Origin: a virus
Direction: 5' to 3' (one strand)
IMG/VR virus record: IMGVR_UViG_3300030389_000640
Location: 1-25,072 of that record
DNA length: 25,072 nucleotides
The stretch's first letter is position 1. Every line of letters starts with the position of its first letter. Positions 1,009 through 19,435 of this stretch are shown one piece after another. The notes beneath the pieces were generated by a model. The model saw only the letters and a list, made by a program, of their open reading frames with translations, had not been told where the DNA came from and did not search any database. Both the position numbers and the translations under genes were made by a program.

Positions 1009-2190
1009 ATGTCTATATTTACACAAGGTCTAGAAATAGAGTTTCAAGGTATTAGTAAAAGATTTGTAGATGATTTATTTCATGTGACTCGTTTTAATGA
1101 TATACCATTATCAAATCTATTAAGAATTGAATTAGAACACGCCGAGTCAATAGAAGTAATTTTTCCACCGTTAGTATACTATGCAAATGGATTTAAAATA
1201 GGCAATTCGCATGATTTAATCAAAACGGTTGTTGATTTATTAATTGAGAATGGAGCAACTACATCTAATGCAAATGGTATTCATGTACATCAATCAATAT
1301 TACCTATTAAAAATATACATCCATTTGATTTAAATAATCATATTATTAAAAATTTTAATTTAAATATGAGACCTAGTAGTATAACTAAAAATTCTTTTTA
1401 TAAATTAGAAGTTTCAAGAGTTATGTTAAAATATTTAGATTTAGAAAATGAAGTTAACTACAAGGTTTTTAAAGATGTAGTTAAGAGATATACTAAATCA
1501 ATAGGTACTTTAAATTTATTTTTTAATCATAGTAGAACGAATAATAGGTTTGCTCAAACTTACAGTTATAGTCAATTAGTTAGTATTTCAAATTCTAATA
1601 ATTTTCAAGATTTGATAAATGTACAAAATGGAGAAAAGTTTTATAATATTAATTTTTTATCAATTACAACTATTAAAACTGTAGAGTTTAGACAATGTCA
1701 TTCAATATTAGATTATAATTTTATTCATAATTGGATGGGTTTTATTGATAATTTAATTAATCATTCAATTAACAGATTTATTGAAATTAAAGGCAAAATA
1801 GAAAAAATTGACTCTCCTAAAGAATATCCATCTTCAAGAGCTAAAAGCAAGGCTACAGTGTATAAGCTTTGCAGAACTCCTGATGGAGCTTCTACACGTA
1901 ATTTGATGGCTTTATGTGAAAATACTGAACAAAGAATTAGGGCTATTATTTCAGAATTAAGACATGAATTTGGACAAGAATTGATTGAAACAGTTGATGC
2001 TATAAATCAGGGTATTCGTTATGGTTCTGGAACTGATAATACTATTTATAAAATAAAAGAATCATATATTAAAACTACACAAGATTCATTTGAACTTAAA
2101 AATATTACCACTAGACCTACAGCAAATATATTTGGCTCTTTAAATGATGATACTTTGCTTTATTTTACTAGAATTATAAATGGTATTTAA
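1009..2190 (+). CDS. Amidoligase-family (COOH-NH2 ligase) protein with C-terminal winged-helix-like domain
   Basis: A 393-residue protein. ATG 1009 is chosen because AGGAG lies 8 bases upstream; the in-frame ATG at 976 has no such site. Residues 1-260 carry motifs I associate with the Amidoligase_2 family (GS-like COOH-NH2 ligases): GLEIEF (7-12), a SIEVIFPPL element (47-55), GIHVH (90-94), and TVEFRQ (224-229) followed by a D...HNW segment (235-242). In that family these acids, histidines and arginine bind Mg-ATP and substrate; members form amide bonds between a carboxylate and an amine on peptides or small molecules. Residues about 281-350 (KATVYKLCRTPDGAS, then NTEQRIRAIISELRHEFG, ending in IYKIK) resemble the DUF3489-type winged helix. 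The gene is monocistronic, with its own terminator and operator-like palindromes on both sides. The substrate is unknown. Confidence 0.75.
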   Translation: MSIFTQGLEIEFQGISKRFVDDLFHVTRFNDIPLSNLLRIELEHAESIEVIFPPLVYYANGFKIGNSHDLIKTVVDLLIENGATTSNANGIHVHQSILPIKNIHPFDLNNHIIKNFNLNMRPSSITKNSFYKLEVSRVMLKYLDLENEVNYKVFKDVVKRYTKSIGTLNLFFNHSRTNNRFAQTYSYSQLVSISNSNNFQDLINVQNGEKFYNINFLSITTIKTVEFRQCHSILDYNFIHNWMGFIDNLINHSINRFIEIKGKIEKIDSPKEYPSSRAKSKATVYKLCRTPDGASTRNLMALCENTEQRIRAIISELRHEFGQELIETVDAINQGIRYGSGTDNTIYKIKESYIKTTQDSFELKNITTRPTANIFGSLNDDTLLYFTRIINGI

Positions 2191-3196: not shown

Positions 3197-6151
3197 ATGG
3201 TAACACCGACAGATCCCAACATAACGAGTAACAAATCGCAAGTTCCGATGGCTACGGACATGAATAGACGTATGGGTTTTAATAATTTTATGAGGGAGGT
3301 TCAAGGAGCAGTACCAACGATGCCATATGTTGCTCCAGAGATGCCGAATGTGTTGCCAGAAGTGAATATGATGGCACAAAGTCCGTTTTTACCGATGAAT
3401 GTACCGATGCAACCACCGATGCAAACGGCTGTTTTACCTCCTTTAGGTTCACTGCCTTCATCGAGGGGGATGGGAAGTGGGTTAGGTTCGCAGCCGATGG
3501 CGACACCCATGCAACCGATGATGATGCAGAATGGTGGAGGTGTATACAAAGGAGCACAATTAACTGAAGAGGAATTAAATTTTGCAAAGGCTTTAAATGA
3601 AGCGAGAAATATTACAGGTGATCAATCAACATATACCTATGGTGCTGGTAATAAAAAAGGACAAATAATTACTTTTGACGATGGAACTCAATTAACGCAA
3701 AGAGGTAGGAATATTTCGATAACTAATCCAGAGGGAGAAGTGATTGATACCTATAAGGCTGATAATGTGGGTGAGGCATTAGATGATTTTCAACAAGGAA
3801 AAGCTCAAGATGTGATTGAGCAGTATGGTGGTGTTGACGATTCAACAGTGAGTGCTGTTTTAGATGCTGAAGCTGCTGCGAGGCAGAGGGCAAAATCAAG
3901 AGGAGATGCTTTTGATAAGATTGTAGCTGATCGAAATAGATTAAATGTTGCTTTGGGTAGACCAGAAAACATAATTGATAGGGAAGATCTCATATCACAG
4001 GTTCAAGACAGTAAAACTGGTAGTTTTCTTGGTGATTTAAAAGCAGCTGGTCAAGATATTTTTGATTTAGTGACCACTGGAGATCCGTTAGGAACAACAA
4101 GAGTACCAAGTGGAGCAATATCCTCTGCAACTATGCCACCATCTAGACCATCTGATGAAACTACTGTGACAACAACCATAAATCCATTTTCTGGTCCATA
4201 CCAAGATGAAATTTTAAGGCAAATAACTAAAACACCAAATGAAATAATTACTACTCCATTTGGAGAGAATCAATTAAGTTTTACAGATCCTTCTTTTTTC
4301 CCACCCACAGGTGCGATGAGTCCTTTTCCTAGCGGTACAGCAAATTTTGCAGAGGGATCTCCATTTGCACAACCTAATTTTGGAGAGGGGATAACATATA
4401 CAGAACCTTTTGGATATCCATCTAATTTTAATCAATTAGCTGATTTTCTTAATATTATTACTGAACCTCCTAAAGCTCCTTTATCTGATGAGGACAAAAG
4501 AAAAGTTGAACTATTAACTGGTGATGCTCTACAAAATGCCACGACTTTAGAGGATATTGAAAAAGTTCAAACAATAATTGATAATCTTGAAGGTCCAAAA
4601 GTGCCTAATTTTTTTAATACACCTGGTAATGTTGTTACATCAGGGGGAGGAATGTTTCCTAATTTTGACAATATAATTAACACACAAGTTTCAAGTCCTC
4701 CTGGATCTCAAGGAAGTCCAAGTTTTTTTGGTAATTTAGGTAAACAAATTTCAGACGCATTTAAAGACTCTAGATTGCCAACTGTGATAGATGACATTGG
4801 TGATGCCTTTGGAAATATAGTTCCCCAAGCAGGAGCATCAGCAGTTGCTGTTCCATCAACAGCAGTGGGAGGCATAGGAGTATCACCTCCTTCTCAATCA
4901 GTTAGTGCTCCTAGCACTCCATCTCTTACAAATATTACAGGTGCATTAAATATTCCCACTAATATTTTAAGTGGATTAGGGCAATTTGTAAAAAGATTAC
5001 CTGGTGTAAATGTACTTAGCACTGCTTTAAGTCCAACTCAAATGGGTGATGCAACTTTACCAGATGCTTTATTTGAAAATTTTGCAACTACAGCAGGATC
5101 TGTTCCTGGAGCTATATCTTTAGCACCAACTACCGATGTAACTGCACCGAATTTACCGATTAACATTGATACACCATTTACTGGTGTTCAAACGCAAGAT
5201 TTAACTAACGTTGGTTTGCCTAATTTATCAATAACTAATTTATTAGCTAATCAGTTGTCAGATACTCTTCCTAATGTGGGTAAAACGACAACATCATTTG
5301 CTTCTACATTTCCAACAGTAACTGATATAGGGGTTGCTCAACCAAGTTCTTTTGTTGCTCCATTTCCCTCAGTAGATGACATAGGAATAGCACCACCAAA
5401 ATCTTTTGTTGATACCACTAAAACTGGCACTGGAACTGATTTAATTACAGATACTGGATTACAAACAGGTACAAAAGAAGCTACTAAAACTGGTACAGGA
5501 ACAATAACTGATACGCAAACTGGATTACAAACTGCAACAGGTACAGATCAAGCAACAAAAGATCAAACGATGGAGAATCTTTTAAAAGCAAATGCTTCAA
5601 CTTTAAGTTCTTCAGAAATACAAGCTTTAATTGATGCTTTCTATGCAGCTAATCCTAACTTAAATCCAGCAAAAACAGGATTGTCAACTGTTCCAGGTGG
5701 TACCACAATTACTGGTGATCCAGATGGACCACCACTAGGACCACCATCAGGACCACCACCAGGACCACCAGCAGGAGGAGGAGGAGATGGACCTCCACCA
5801 CCACCAGGAGGAGGATTTCAAGTAGATCCATTTCCACCACCAGCAGGACCACCACAACCACCACAACAACCACCACCAGGAGGAGGAGAAACACCACCAC
5901 CCCCACCATCTGATGATGGTGATCCTCTTGTTCCGTTTTATGATCCAGAGCCATCAACTTCTCCAACAGATCCAGAAACTGAGAAAGTTGTTCAAACTGT
6001 TGGAGGAAGTGCTTCGCAACCAGTTTTTGAAGATCCATTTTTTAATAGAAGATTAAGTGGTGAGGTAGAGGGATTAAGATTTAATCCAATCGCAGGTGTT
6101 TCAAATACATTAAATCGAGCTGCAGATGATTTTTTAAGTTCATTCGTGTAA
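3197..6151 (+). CDS. Large low-complexity Pro/Gly/Thr-rich protein before TerL
   Basis: A 984-residue protein with GGAG 8 bases before its ATG. I recognise no enzyme domain. The N-terminus (about 1-110) is Met/Pro-rich and ends in MMMQNGGGVYKG, an NGGxV motif also seen in other proteins of this window. Residues about 110-220 are mixed and could fold. The middle is Pro/Phe/Ser-rich. Around 700-738 an element of the form FPxVxDIGxAxPxSFV occurs twice, then a Thr/Gly region with repeated TGLQT (about 741-790), then a Pro/Gly tract (about 841-905). The C-terminus becomes ordinary again (NRRLSGEVEGLRFNPIAG). It is a probable virion or assembly protein. It sits where TerS is normally encoded, one base before TerL, but shows no TerS features. 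Confidence 0.7.
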   Translation: MVTPTDPNITSNKSQVPMATDMNRRMGFNNFMREVQGAVPTMPYVAPEMPNVLPEVNMMAQSPFLPMNVPMQPPMQTAVLPPLGSLPSSRGMGSGLGSQPMATPMQPMMMQNGGGVYKGAQLTEEELNFAKALNEARNITGDQSTYTYGAGNKKGQIITFDDGTQLTQRGRNISITNPEGEVIDTYKADNVGEALDDFQQGKAQDVIEQYGGVDDSTVSAVLDAEAAARQRAKSRGDAFDKIVADRNRLNVALGRPENIIDREDLISQVQDSKTGSFLGDLKAAGQDIFDLVTTGDPLGTTRVPSGAISSATMPPSRPSDETTVTTTINPFSGPYQDEILRQITKTPNEIITTPFGENQLSFTDPSFFPPTGAMSPFPSGTANFAEGSPFAQPNFGEGITYTEPFGYPSNFNQLADFLNIITEPPKAPLSDEDKRKVELLTGDALQNATTLEDIEKVQTIIDNLEGPKVPNFFNTPGNVVTSGGGMFPNFDNIINTQVSSPPGSQGSPSFFGNLGKQISDAFKDSRLPTVIDDIGDAFGNIVPQAGASAVAVPSTAVGGIGVSPPSQSVSAPSTPSLTNITGALNIPTNILSGLGQFVKRLPGVNVLSTALSPTQMGDATLPDALFENFATTAGSVPGAISLAPTTDVTAPNLPINIDTPFTGVQTQDLTNVGLPNLSITNLLANQLSDTLPNVGKTTTSFASTFPTVTDIGVAQPSSFVAPFPSVDDIGIAPPKSFVDTTKTGTGTDLITDTGLQTGTKEATKTGTGTITDTQTGLQTATGTDQATKDQTMENLLKANASTLSSSEIQALIDAFYAANPNLNPAKTGLSTVPGGTTITGDPDGPPLGPPSGPPPGPPAGGGGDGPPPPPGGGFQVDPFPPPAGPPQPPQQPPPGGGETPPPPPSDDGDPLVPFYDPEPSTSPTDPETEKVVQTVGGSASQPVFEDPFFNRRLSGEVEGLRFNPIAGVSNTLNRAADDFLSSFV
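5718..5910 (+). repeat. Pro/Gly-rich coding microrepeat
   Basis: The stretch is built from iterated CCA and GGA codons and encodes a Pro/Gly tract. The composition is much more GC-rich than the flanks. Slippage may change its length between relatives. Confidence 0.75.
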
Positions 6152-6152
6152 A

Positions 6153-7628
6153 ATGGAAGATATAAGTGAATTTGCTGAATATTTAACAAATGAGGAGCTT
6201 CAAAAAATAGCTCCGATGATTGATAGGTTAACTTTATTAGAGAATCGAAAGAAAAGAGAAGATAATTTTTTAGAGTTCGTAAAGTTTGTTTGGCCGCAGT
6301 TTATTCAAGGGAATCATCATAAAATTTACGCACAAAAACTTCAAGACGTTGCAGATGGTAAGATTAATCGTCTTATTATTAATATGCCTCCAAGACATAC
6401 GAAGTCTGAATTTGCGTCTTATTTATTTCCCGCATGGCTTATGGGTAAAAACCCCAATAAAAAAATTATTCAAGCTACTCACACGGCAGAATTGGCTGTT
6501 GGGTTTGGTCGAAAGGTTAAAAACCTTATTGATGATGAGCAATTCCGTGATGTTTTTCCTCATGTTAAACTCGCAACTGATGCGAAAGCGTCTGGTAGAT
6601 GGTCTACTTCAAGTGGTGGGGAGTATTATGCAGTGGGTGTTGGTGGTGCTCTTGCTGGGCGTGGTGCTGATTTGTGTATTATTGATGACCCTGTTTCCGA
6701 ACAGGACGCATTAAGTCCAACAGCATTAGATAATATTTATGAATGGTACACTTCTGGACCTCGACAGCGTTTACAACCTGGTGGTGCATTAATTATTGTT
6801 ATGACACGTTGGAGTATTCGTGATCTAACGGCAAAAGTTTTACACAAACAAAGCGAAGTTGGAGCTGATAAGTGGGAAGTTGTAGAGTTTCCAGCCGTTA
6901 TGCCTTCTGGTAATCCATTATGGGGTGAATTTTGGAGTTTAGAAGAATTAGATAGTGTTAAAGCTTCTATTCCTATTTCTAAATGGAACGCTCAGTATAT
7001 GCAAAACCCTACAGCAGAAGAGGGAGCAATTATTAAACGTGAATGGTGGAATATGTGGGAACATGATGATCCACCTCATTGTAGTTATGTCATTCAAAGT
7101 TATGATACTGCATTTAGCAAATCAGATCGAGCTGACTATAGTGCGATTACAACATGGGGTGTTTTTTCACCAGTTGAGGGTGAAGCTGAAGCGATTATTT
7201 TACTTGATTCTATTCGAGGTCGTTGGGATTTTCCAGAATTAAAGGAAAAAGCATATGAATTAAATGAGCAATATGATCCAGATATGATCTTGATTGAACA
7301 GAAGGCAAGTGGTATGCCTTTAACACAGGAGCTAAGAAGGATGGGTATTCCTGTTACACCTTTTACACCGAGTAGAGGTGCTGACAAATACACTCGTATG
7401 AACGCTTGTGCTCCTATATTTGAGAGTGGTATGGTTTGGCGACCAGATACTAATTTTGCTGATGAAGTTGTGGAAGAGTGTGCTTCATTTCCTAACGGAG
7501 AACACGATGACTTAGCTGATAGTATGACCCAAGCGATACTAAGATTTAGACAGGGAGGTTTCTTGATAACACCATCAGATTATGACGATGATTATCAATG
7601 GAAGTCTAGAAAAAAGGAGTATTATTAG
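6153..7628 (+). CDS. terL: Terminase large subunit (TerL)
   Basis: A 491-residue packaging motor that translocates DNA into the prohead and cuts it. The N-terminal ATPase shows a Walker A-like MPPRHTKS (78-85), Walker B with catalytic acid LCIIDDP (174-180) and the coupling motif VMTRWS (216-221). The C-terminal RNase H-like nuclease has its acidic residues in SYDTAFS (Asp318), LIEQKASG (Glu382) and HDDLADS (Asp452/453). The length and motif order are complete, so it should be functional. The ATG lies one base after the upstream stop, suggesting translational coupling. The portal gene follows three genes later. The style is close to the terminases of marine podoviruses and alphaproteobacterial prophages. 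Confidence 0.97.
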   Translation: MEDISEFAEYLTNEELQKIAPMIDRLTLLENRKKREDNFLEFVKFVWPQFIQGNHHKIYAQKLQDVADGKINRLIINMPPRHTKSEFASYLFPAWLMGKNPNKKIIQATHTAELAVGFGRKVKNLIDDEQFRDVFPHVKLATDAKASGRWSTSSGGEYYAVGVGGALAGRGADLCIIDDPVSEQDALSPTALDNIYEWYTSGPRQRLQPGGALIIVMTRWSIRDLTAKVLHKQSEVGADKWEVVEFPAVMPSGNPLWGEFWSLEELDSVKASIPISKWNAQYMQNPTAEEGAIIKREWWNMWEHDDPPHCSYVIQSYDTAFSKSDRADYSAITTWGVFSPVEGEAEAIILLDSIRGRWDFPELKEKAYELNEQYDPDMILIEQKASGMPLTQELRRMGIPVTPFTPSRGADKYTRMNACAPIFESGMVWRPDTNFADEVVEECASFPNGEHDDLADSMTQAILRFRQGGFLITPSDYDDDYQWKSRKKEYY

Positions 7629-7632
7629 AGAG

Positions 7633-8310
7633 ATGTCTTATTTAATTAGCGATATACCTCATTTTAAATGTTGGGTTAGAAAAGAATTTACTTGTAATCA
7701 TTTAGATTATCATGGAGAATACCTCCATGCGTTAGCCATAGCTGTAAATACAATACCTGATCGTTCTTTAAGTTTTCAAGTTGTGTTTACAGGGTGCGAA
7801 CCAGATGGAGAACCAGAGGATACTGTTCATGGTGGAGCAATGTGGGCGAGGATGCCGATAAGTGCTTTAGTTGCAGATATCCCATTAGAGGAGTGGCCGC
7901 AAAGAATGGAAACACATTTAGTACAACCTTGGGATTGTAGTTCTCACAATCACTCAGTTATTGTCATGGAGAGGGTAAGCTCAAGTCCTTGGATTTGCAA
8001 GATAGACGGAGAGTTTTACGAGGGCAAATATTTATTTACTGTAGATTACACAGAAAGTCATATCGCAGACGATCCTGCACAACACAAGCAGAGTCATGTA
8101 ATACAACTGACAGATGCAGGAGAGTGGACAGGCAACATTGTTGCTCTGCCAAATAATAGAGTTAGGGCAACAAGTCCTGCTTTATGGGTAACAGGTGAGG
8201 GTGCTCCAGACTTTAAGCCAAGTCAACATCTTCATGCTGCCGAATCAGACAGTAGTTATCTAGACCCAGAAATTACTTTTAACAATCTATACGCTCAAGA
8301 GGAGGATTAA
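7633..8310 (+). CDS. Conserved-looking hypothetical protein between terminase and portal
   Basis: A 225-residue protein. The start at 7633 is 4 bases after the TerL stop; an in-frame ATG at 7582 would lie inside TerL. The product is rich in aromatic, His and Cys residues (FKCWVRKEFTCNHLDYHGEY near 9-28), with an acidic C-terminus. There is no membrane segment or signal peptide. A compact beta-rich fold is likely (VVFTGCEPDGEPEDTVHGG, then VDYTESHIADDP). It is embedded in the packaging block, so a head, packaging or virion role is likely. I do not recognise a named family. The several Cys/His residues are not arranged as a classical zinc finger. Confidence 0.75.
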   Translation: MSYLISDIPHFKCWVRKEFTCNHLDYHGEYLHALAIAVNTIPDRSLSFQVVFTGCEPDGEPEDTVHGGAMWARMPISALVADIPLEEWPQRMETHLVQPWDCSSHNHSVIVMERVSSSPWICKIDGEFYEGKYLFTVDYTESHIADDPAQHKQSHVIQLTDAGEWTGNIVALPNNRVRATSPALWVTGEGAPDFKPSQHLHAAESDSSYLDPEITFNNLYAQEED

Positions 8311-12684: not shown

Positions 12685-13344
12685 ATGTCAAATATATATA
12701 TTCCAAAAAGCGAAGAGGAGATATTTGCTCCCTTTAGTCCAGTTGTGGGTTATCGTAAAATGTCGCCATCTTTCGTTGATAAGATGAACAGTTCTATGAA
12801 TGAAAAGATGGAAGACTGGTCACATAATTTAGTTGGAAAAGTTAAACAAGAATTAAAATTTACAGAAGAACTTAATAAACTTTGGGGTCGTGAATTGGGT
12901 GATTTTCTCATGCGTTATCAAAGTCATGCAGAACAATATTGTTCTATGGGTAGAACCAACATTAGACCAGATTTATATGAATATAGTGTTGAAGTTACGA
13001 GCGGTTGGTTTGTTAGACAGTTTGAGAATGAATATAATCCAATTCATGTGCATCTTGGAAGTTCACTATCTTGTGTTGGATATTTAAAATTACCAGAAGG
13101 AATTGAAAAAGAGTGGGAAGAAGATTACAAAGATCATCATCCATCACATGGACATATTCAATTTGTTCATGGTCAAGCTGCAAATCATACTGGATCTAAT
13201 TTTTTAGTAAAACCACAAGTTGGAGATTTTTTTGTTTTTCCTGCACACTTGCATCATTGTGTTTATCCATTTAAAACTAAAGGAGAGAGAAGATCATTTA
13301 GTGTAAATTTCACTATCGTTGCTAAACCAAAAGGAGAAAGTTAA
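12685..13344 (+). CDS. 2OG-Fe(II) oxygenase-like protein
   Basis: A 219-residue protein resembling the small 2-oxoglutarate/Fe(II) oxygenases common in marine phages (the PF13759 type). Visible features are NPIHVHLGSSLSCVGYLKLP (119-138), where His121/His123 would bind iron, then VGDFFVFPAHLHHCVYPF (179-196) with the distal His191, and ERRSFSVNF (201-209), whose Arg would hold 2-oxoglutarate. The usual HxD is HxH here, as in this subfamily. Such enzymes hydroxylate a protein, nucleic acid or small molecule; the substrate is unknown. A gap of 12 bases after the EF-hand gene holds GAGGTG as ribosome binding site. It is probably an auxiliary metabolic or virion-modifying enzyme. Confidence 0.78.
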   Translation: MSNIYIPKSEEEIFAPFSPVVGYRKMSPSFVDKMNSSMNEKMEDWSHNLVGKVKQELKFTEELNKLWGRELGDFLMRYQSHAEQYCSMGRTNIRPDLYEYSVEVTSGWFVRQFENEYNPIHVHLGSSLSCVGYLKLPEGIEKEWEEDYKDHHPSHGHIQFVHGQAANHTGSNFLVKPQVGDFFVFPAHLHHCVYPFKTKGERRSFSVNFTIVAKPKGES

Positions 13345-15069: not shown

Positions 15070-15264
15070 ATGGACGCTATATCACTAGCAGAATATTTAT
15101 TAAAAGACATTAGGCAAAGAAAACAAGATTTTGCAGATTCTTTGGTTAGTGGATCATGCGATACGATTGAAACGTATCGGTTTACAGTAGGTCAAATACG
15201 AGGAATGACTTATGTAGAAGATTTAATTGTTTCCTCGATGAAAGGTATAGAGTTAGATGAATAA
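15070..15264 (+). CDS. Small helical protein preceding the co-chaperonin gene
   Basis: A 64-residue protein. ATG 15070 is preferred over 15040 because AGGAG (15058-15062) lies 7 bases before it. It is acidic and predicted helical (MDAISLAEYLLKDIRQRKQD...), with a central GSCDTIETY element, a layout I recall from small phage proteins encoded near portal or head genes. Function unknown. Its end overlaps the GroES-like gene by 8 bases. Confidence 0.68.
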   Translation: MDAISLAEYLLKDIRQRKQDFADSLVSGSCDTIETYRFTVGQIRGMTYVEDLIVSSMKGIELDE

Positions 15265-15727
15265 AAAAATATTTGTTCCTCAAAAGAAAATTATAGGTGC
15301 AACAAGCCGTATTCCAAAAGCAGTTGAAAAAGCATTTCCAAAAGTAGAAGAGTCTAAAAATTCAGAAGACCCTTCAAAATTTAAACCATCCGTTTTGGAG
15401 AGATTGCCTCAGCCAGTTGGATATAGATTGTTAGTAATTCCTTATTACATGAAACAAACGACAAAAGGTGGAGTGTTTATTCCAGACGCTACAAGAGATA
15501 AAGAGAGCTTTGCTACAGTTGCAGCCTATGTTGTTAAACTAGGACCTGATGCTTATAAAGATTCGGAAAAGTTTCCAAGTGGACCTTGGTGTGTTGAGAA
15601 AAATTGGGTTCTTATGGGAAGATATGCTGGAAATCGTTTTAAAGTGGACGGATTAGAAGTTAGGCTAATAAATGATGATAATATTATAGCAACTATACTT
15701 GACCCATCAGATATTTCGTATGTATAA
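15257..15727 (+). CDS. GroES-like co-chaperonin
   Basis: A 156-residue protein with an extra N-terminal arm of about 48 residues and then a Cpn10-like domain (about 49-150): LPQPVGYRLLVIP, a mobile-loop-like KQTTKGGVFIPDATRDKES (66-84), VVKLGPDAY, and the C-terminal VRLINDDNIIATILDP. In GroES the mobile loop holds a hydrophobic tripeptide that docks on GroEL; VFIP takes that place here. The insert FPSGPWCVEKNWVLMGRYAG is the usual phage version. Like T4 gp31, it probably joins host GroEL to fold the capsid protein, which is encoded four genes downstream after the scaffold. Confidence 0.88.
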   Translation: MNKKIFVPQKKIIGATSRIPKAVEKAFPKVEESKNSEDPSKFKPSVLERLPQPVGYRLLVIPYYMKQTTKGGVFIPDATRDKESFATVAAYVVKLGPDAYKDSEKFPSGPWCVEKNWVLMGRYAGNRFKVDGLEVRLINDDNIIATILDPSDISYV

Positions 15728-18733: not shown

Positions 18734-18771
18734 TGGACATGATAAACCTTGACAGTTATACAATATAACTG
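18734..18771 (+). promoter_or_regulatory. Promoter with palindrome over the -10 region
   Basis: TGGACA (18734-18739), a 17-base spacer and TATACA (18757-18762) form a plausible promoter for the surface-protein genes. A hyphenated palindrome CAGTTATA-CAA-TATAACTG (18753-18771, 8-bp arms) covers the -10 box. A repressor or activator site is likely; alternatively it is a short hairpin at the start of the leader. Confidence 0.5.
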
Positions 18772-18796
18772 ACGCAGCCAAGACAAGGAGATTAAC

Positions 18797-19435
18797 ATGG
18801 CTAATACAACATTTAGAGGAACAGTAAGATCAGCAGAGGGATTAAAAGTTATATCTATTAATTCAACTACTGGTGCAGAAACAGAAAATCTTGCTATTGA
18901 TTCAAGTTCAAATATACAATCAAAGGGTACATTAATATCTGCTGGTACAAGAAAAATACAAACATTTGTGGGAACTCTTGCTGAAACTAACGCAGCTTCA
19001 ACTGCTTATGCAGATGGTGATGTTCTTGTAGAGCTTGGTGCGTTAGATACCACAGCACCTGCAAGTATTGTAACACCAACAAAATTCTTTATACACAGAG
19101 CTTTAGTAGGTATCACTACGGCAGCTGGTGAAACTTTAGTTGGTAGTCTGCAATTAAGTGCAACTTCTGGTACAGCGACTAATGCAGCCGTATCTTCAGG
19201 AACAGAAATTGTTGGTGCTGGTGTAACTTCATTTAACGAACAATTAAGTGCCACACAATCTATTACTGAAATAGATATTAATTTTAACGATAGTGCTGGA
19301 AATTATCATATATTTGTTCCTAATATTACTGCTGCCATAGCAAGTAAAAACTTGTATGCAGCTGCCACAACCACTGTAAATGCTGATATAACGGCTGGTC
19401 GATTTACTGTCGAACTAGAATATTCAGTATTTTAA
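18797..19435 (+). CDS. Virion surface protein
   Basis: A 212-residue Thr/Ala/Ser-rich protein with an all-beta pattern (SLQLSATSGTATNAAVSSGT), no membrane span and few charged residues. This composition is typical of exposed phage decoration or tail surface proteins. AAGGAG lies just upstream of the ATG. It is the first gene after the capsid terminator and is followed by a terminator-like hairpin, so it may be expressed at higher level than the genes beyond. Confidence 0.72.
   Translation: MANTTFRGTVRSAEGLKVISINSTTGAETENLAIDSSSNIQSKGTLISAGTRKIQTFVGTLAETNAASTAYADGDVLVELGALDTTAPASIVTPTKFFIHRALVGITTAAGETLVGSLQLSATSGTATNAAVSSGTEIVGAGVTSFNEQLSATQSITEIDINFNDSAGNYHIFVPNITAAIASKNLYAAATTTVNADITAGRFTVELEYSVF

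Follow-up and report, generated by a model that had tools for sequence, protein, structure and literature searches.

A predicted phage amidoligase with a fused winged helix and an associated palindrome: a candidate self-regulating ligase

In the window analyzed here, a 25,072-base IMG/VR virus fragment that is a contig only and not a whole genome, one gene encodes a predicted amidoligase joined to a winged helix. The gene (1009 to 2190, plus strand, 393 amino acids) was defined by its open reading frame, the family alignment, and an AlphaFold2 model. A short palindrome, with the family motif TAACCCGAACAATTGTTCG, lies around it, and in relatives the ligase, the palindrome, and a gamma-glutamylcyclotransferase (GGACT) occur together. 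We regard it as fairly probable that the protein is both a ligase and an autoregulator, similar in logic to BirA and working with reversible gamma-glutamyl-type chemistry.

The window's large terminase subunit (TerL) is 55 to 61% identical to those of Pelagibacter phages HTVC023P and HTVC027P, phage 023Pt_psg01, and phage DSL-LC04. In marine phages related to HTVC023P and HTVC027P, homologues of the ligase gene are found at the same position, in the terS-terL interval. The first-pass annotation, which had been made from the sequence alone, had put the gene in the "accessory end" of a lytic-type phage. The end is an artifact of the contig, as the window is a 25-kb fragment and relatives carry the gene between the two terminase genes. 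A lytic lifestyle is compatible with the data, with no tyrosine integrase (PF00589) in the eight records searched.

The ligase reading frame is the sole one between two terminator-like hairpins on the plus strand, at 736 to 755 on its 5' side and 2222 to 2249 on its 3' side, so that the gene stands alone between two terminators as had been described. An in-frame ATG is also present at 976, upstream of the start at 1009. The latter is preceded by the ribosome-site context AGGAGAATCAAAAATG, an exact 16-base copy of which precedes the reading frame at 219. The reading frames 219 to 512 and 522 to 719 form a small plus-strand unit (219 to 719) behind a perfect palindrome and a sigma-70-like promoter at 161 to 189, and this unit is proposed to be coregulated with the ligase.

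Ligase domain and winged helix

The window protein alone matched Amidoligase_2 in Pfam at an E value of 0.01 (16.1 bits, against a cut-off of 22) and the PHROG amidoligases at 0.0075 and 0.0083, and it returned nothing when viral contigs were scanned with it directly. Since these matches were weak, relatives were gathered through the neighboring terL. Homologues were then met at the same site upstream of terL, and many more were found later. A family alignment was built from 38 diverse members, with the window protein 20 to 31% identical to its relatives. Amidoligase_2 (PF12224) was matched by all 38 at an E value of 0.1 or lower (best, 4e-22), and relatives scored well over the cut-off, for example 62.3 and 58 bits. 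Because every member matched, the assignment is more than chance.

The EIEF, PPL, HVH, and TVEFRQ motifs that had been recognized in the window protein proved to be largely fixed in the family. E9, E11, H92, H94, R160, R176, K210, E226, and R228 were invariant (38/38), so that all residues of the active-site-type ExE, HxH, and ExR patterns were kept; E49 was conserved in 37 members and the second proline of PPL (P54) in 32. Such invariance is as expected of a working enzyme, and catalysis by the protein would be consistent with it.

AlphaFold2 modeled the whole protein with a mean pLDDT of 85 and a pTM of 0.72, and residues 1 to 262 with a pTM of 0.85. When these residues were compared with the PDB by Foldseek, the first four matches were GshF, YbdK (two chains), and the 1-naphthylamine ligase of the glutamine synthetase (GS) family, all of them weak (E values of 0.008 to 0.18). 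With the whole protein, Foldseek against viral models returned named phage amidoligases at E values down to 3e-8. A sequence search of the PDB with the ligase gave no significant match and was uninformative. By the Pfam family, the conserved residues, AlphaFold2, and Foldseek, residues 1 to 257 (1009 to 1779, plus strand) are assigned as a remote Amidoligase_2 or glutamine-synthetase-like ligase with a GS-like fold, the model of which resembles gamma-glutamyl ligases.

The second domain, at about residues 279 to 350 (1843 to 2058, plus strand), was identified from PF11994, AlphaFold2, and Foldseek as a DUF3489-like winged helix. DUF3489 (PF11994) was matched by 25 of the 38 members (best E value, 1.1e-4), under the curated cut-off where scores were shown, and the window protein itself gave nothing in Pfam against it at an E value of 1 or lower. 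For residues 279 to 349, AlphaFold2 predicted three helices (279 to 288, 296 to 303, and 307 to 321) and two strands (326 to 329 and 346 to 349) with high pLDDT. The Foldseek matches of this domain were of the MarR-type winged helix-turn-helix (wHTH), and the whole protein also matched one DUF3489 protein among the viral models at 3e-3. The two domain assignments of the first-pass annotation are thus supported, and the separate structural comparisons it suggested gave weak matches to GS-like ligases for one domain and MarR-type proteins for the other.

A small stand-alone protein of the DUF3489-like type is encoded directly 5' of the ligase in the relative L042 (3731 to 3970), and the same arrangement occurs in some other relatives. 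It is possibly a copy split off from the ligase's own domain.

The palindrome and its link to the ligase gene

The window contains several copies of the palindrome that we propose as operators. A perfect copy, CGAACAATTGTTCG, lies at 104 to 117, 108 bp 5' of the reading frame at 219. Upstream of the ligase, CGAACAATTGTTTG lies at 886 to 899 with its center 116 bp 5' of the start codon, and AAGACAATTGTTCG lies just past the stop codon at 2203 to 2216. A degenerate copy with three mismatches at 979 to 992, 23 bp 5' of the start codon, is uncertain. In relatives, the most frequent position of the nearest upstream copy is -111; in many others it falls around -276 to -300, and there a small wHTH gene may sit between the site and the ligase (L042). 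A further copy follows about 85 bp 3' of the ligase stop codon. Most relatives also carry a copy within the ligase frame, at the linker between the two domains, and the window gene is without it.

All 43 genes that encode RTIV at the in-frame copy did so with ACA-ATT-GT, for which the expectation from codon usage was 0.185. The threonine and isoleucine codons of the palindrome were, among 129 conserved degenerate columns, the only Thr or Ile codons without synonymous variation, and they made up two of only three invariant codons of any kind. In addition, palindrome density 5' and just 3' of the ligase was 2.4 to 2.7 per kb, compared with about 0.006 for permuted palindromes (approximately 400-fold), and it was close to zero farther 3'. 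Because the sites were gathered with the core ACAATTGT, conservation of this core is circular, which does not apply to the flanks, the positions, or the codon and permutation controls. These sequence comparisons show the palindrome to be under nucleotide-level constraint. Changes in the palindrome arms were uncompensated, which favors a site acting as DNA; the reading as an RNA hairpin was rejected on this ground.

The palindrome was tied closely to the presence of the ligase. At least three copies were found at 64 of 64 ligase-bearing loci and none at any of the four ligase-less loci; this comparison includes only a few ligase-less genomes, and the majority of the ligase-bearing loci had been collected with the ligase itself as the query. 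G003, a ligase-less record of 55 kb, contained no palindrome at up to two mismatches of a 15-base pattern, nor did four further ligase-less terS relatives, whose downstream part is short. Mapped onto the TerL tree, the presence or absence of the ligase requires at least four changes, and sister pairs differ in it: the window and L004, whose TerL proteins are 97% identical, and L144 and L070. The association is thus not the result of a single inherited event, within a set of few ligase-less genomes.

When the genes of the ligase-bearing record G002 were compared across records, only the ligase and GGACT were present in all six other ligase-bearing records (G001, G007, G008, G010, G011, and G004) and absent from the ligase-less set, which consisted of G003, HTVC023P, HTVC027P, psg01, and DSL-LC04. 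For the four named phages in this set, the comparison covered about 25 kb each. In addition, no wHTH of this type other than the C-terminal domain of the ligase was detected in the window, G001, G004, or G010. Because the ligase and GGACT alone track the palindrome and the ligase carries the sole wHTH of this type, the ligase is, on comparative evidence, the leading candidate for the protein that reads it. The suggestion that the gene is self-regulated gained strong indirect support from a palindrome found around and inside the gene only where the ligase is present, with the ligase as a candidate reader.

Proposed mechanism and alternatives

The pairing of the ligase with GGACT was strict. The GGACT (AIG2-like) family, PF06094, was matched over the cut-off by both proteins scanned. 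GGACT was found in all eight other ligase-bearing records and in none of six ligase-less ones, four of which are complete phage genomes; among loci with enough flanking sequence, it was found at 17 of 17 with the ligase and 0 of 3 without. In L009 and L123, a separate copy of the palindrome precedes the GGACT gene by about 153 bp. The window contig stops short of the position where GGACT would be expected. This pairing points to reversible gamma-glutamyl chemistry, which was absent from the roles proposed in the first-pass annotation. A class II glutaminase partner (GATase, PF13522), as reported for OM43 phages (PMC10580990), was absent from the eight records searched.

We propose that the gene product is a carboxylate-amine ligase of the GS superfamily, most likely one forming gamma-glutamyl-type amides, and that its C-terminal winged helix makes it its own transcription factor. 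A ligase dimer would bind TAACCCGAACAATTGTTCG on both sides of its own gene and, in most relatives, also within it, as well as the palindromes before neighboring units of the terS-terL accessory interval. Through several operators, the ligase would control both itself and these accessory units, with a presumed benefit to the phage. GGACT would undo or trim the product formed on the putative substrate, presumably with a gamma-glutamyl donor, and the state of ligation may feed back on operator binding, as in BirA. The upstream palindrome lies about 110 bp 5' of the start and may precede the promoter; therefore, the direction of regulation may be activation, or this copy may have an unrelated role. 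Another regulator, of the phage or the host, could also read the palindrome. A broader version of this proposal, which we put forward only tentatively, is that a GS-fold ligase acts as a transcription factor on a dispersed palindrome and that its ligation state, set by substrate or ATP supply, adjusts an accessory regulon that includes the opposing GGACT.

A rather unlikely alternative is that the protein works as a conventional phage amidoligase and modifies the host cell wall or metabolites, in superinfection exclusion or auxiliary metabolism, while the winged helix only localizes or stabilizes it and a different regulator reads the palindromes. Many phage amidoligases have no described winged helix, and roles of these types have been suggested for them (PMC10580990; PMC10945688). 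Other regulators are also at hand, namely a separate HTH_3 protein at 2706 to 2927 and the small stand-alone wHTH of some relatives. However, kin of the HTH_3 gene were found by tblastn in only some palindrome loci, and one occurs in L004, which has neither ligase nor palindrome; the small wHTH was undetected in several palindrome-bearing records (the window, G001, G004, and G010) and was rejected as the sole reader. Moreover, it is the ligase gene that the palindrome accompanies, down to the copy within its reading frame. An anti-defense cassette, in which the ligase modifies or neutralizes a host defense protein or signal molecule in a slot for the exchange of counter-defense genes, appears unlikely to a greater degree. 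The module switches repeatedly on the TerL tree, and in L004, the close sister of the window, the ligase slot is occupied (5437 to 6369) by an ArdC-like anti-restriction protein (ArdcN, 1.2e-12; MPTase-PolyVal, 2.7e-35). This gene is the sole hint toward the roles of protein modifier, anti-defense factor, or superinfection factor named in the first-pass annotation. However, the interval of other ligase-less relatives is occupied by different genes, most of them unassigned, and neither the ligase nor GGACT matched any model of PADLOC-DB, a database that covers defense and not anti-defense proteins.

It is more improbable still that the palindromes are structural DNA of the terS-terL region, serving packaging, replication, or recombination, or RNA hairpins, with the link to the ligase due to shared inheritance. 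Their location between terS and terL near CGGG-rich repeats would suit such an element, as would the overlap of one window copy with a terminator-like match. Nevertheless, the palindromes are missing where terS and terL are present without the ligase, on separate branches of the tree; they precede several gene starts, and the uncompensated arm changes noted above again speak against RNA hairpins. If the favored bifunctional reading is true, a ligase that controls its own gene would be new for the amidoligase family, and a BirA-like ligase-regulator design would have been reached with an unrelated ligase fold. Binding assays could start directly from the palindrome as a probe, in the form TAACCCGAACAATTGTTCGGGTTA, and mass spectrometry could be used to look for the gamma-glutamyl conjugate expected from the two enzymes.

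Known systems and other features of the region

Annotated Amidoligase_2 (PF12224) enzymes of phages, such as gp98 of Arthrobacter phage Salgado and gp40 of Bacillus phage 031MP004, are like the window protein in ligase domain, motifs, and predicted fold. However, in the annotated phages found, matches end at the ligase domain, whereas here a winged helix is fused to it and palindromes surround the gene. Among 50,697 annotated phages, no record matched at least 80% of the fused protein of L042. In bacterial and archaeal genomes, one near-full-length match was found, on a 6.4-kb contig binned as Rhodobacteraceae, and the others were partial, mostly in the ligase domain. Some unnamed viral models align past the ligase domain, so that sequence databases may already contain the fusion unrecognized. 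Amidoligases are annotated in many phages, but the literature consulted on them reports no substrate for any.

The closest solved folds of the first domain are those of the GS-superfamily enzymes YbdK, GshF, and 1-naphthylamine gamma-glutamyl ligase, from which the window protein differs in its added winged helix and in a sequence match that is not significant. DUF3489 (PF11994) is like the second domain and the small stand-alone proteins of relatives, but here it is fused to a ligase. An amidoligase and a gamma-glutamylcyclotransferase have been reported in one phage genome for Arthrobacter cluster AL phages (PMC5513430) and for Phage-ZRK32 (PMC10945688); the portions of these reports consulted describe neither a fused winged helix nor a palindrome set for the pairs. 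As reported previously, BirA-type (group II) biotin protein ligases combine a ligase and a winged-helix DNA-binding domain in one chain and regulate transcription (PMC4016012). In BirA, the winged helix is N-terminal and the ligase has another fold, whereas the winged helix of the window ligase is C-terminal. Neither the window protein nor its family matched a biotin protein ligase in Pfam, and none was among the PDB folds listed by Foldseek. The protein is therefore not a BirA and only possibly works like one.

Several other features were observed in the region. A TCGGG tandem repeat lies 5' of the ligase at 772 to 793, and CGGG-rich kin of it are found at like positions in many relatives. 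From 2274 to 2284 onward, AAGGTACCCTA and the next bases recur past the ligase terminator in many relatives, and by this recurrence the region is assigned as a conserved noncoding element between the ligase and terL. A small reading frame and the HTH_3 protein follow 3' of the ligase (2457 to 2927), and kin of both occur in part of the family. In the structural region, the window encodes a PHROG "ferredoxin" moron gene (7582 to 8310), a 2OG-Fe(II) oxygenase (12685 to 13344), and a GroES cochaperonin (15257 to 15727). Near the major capsid gene region, an Rfam Mu-gpT-DE RNA (RF03012, 52.7 bits) was found at 18747 to 18799.
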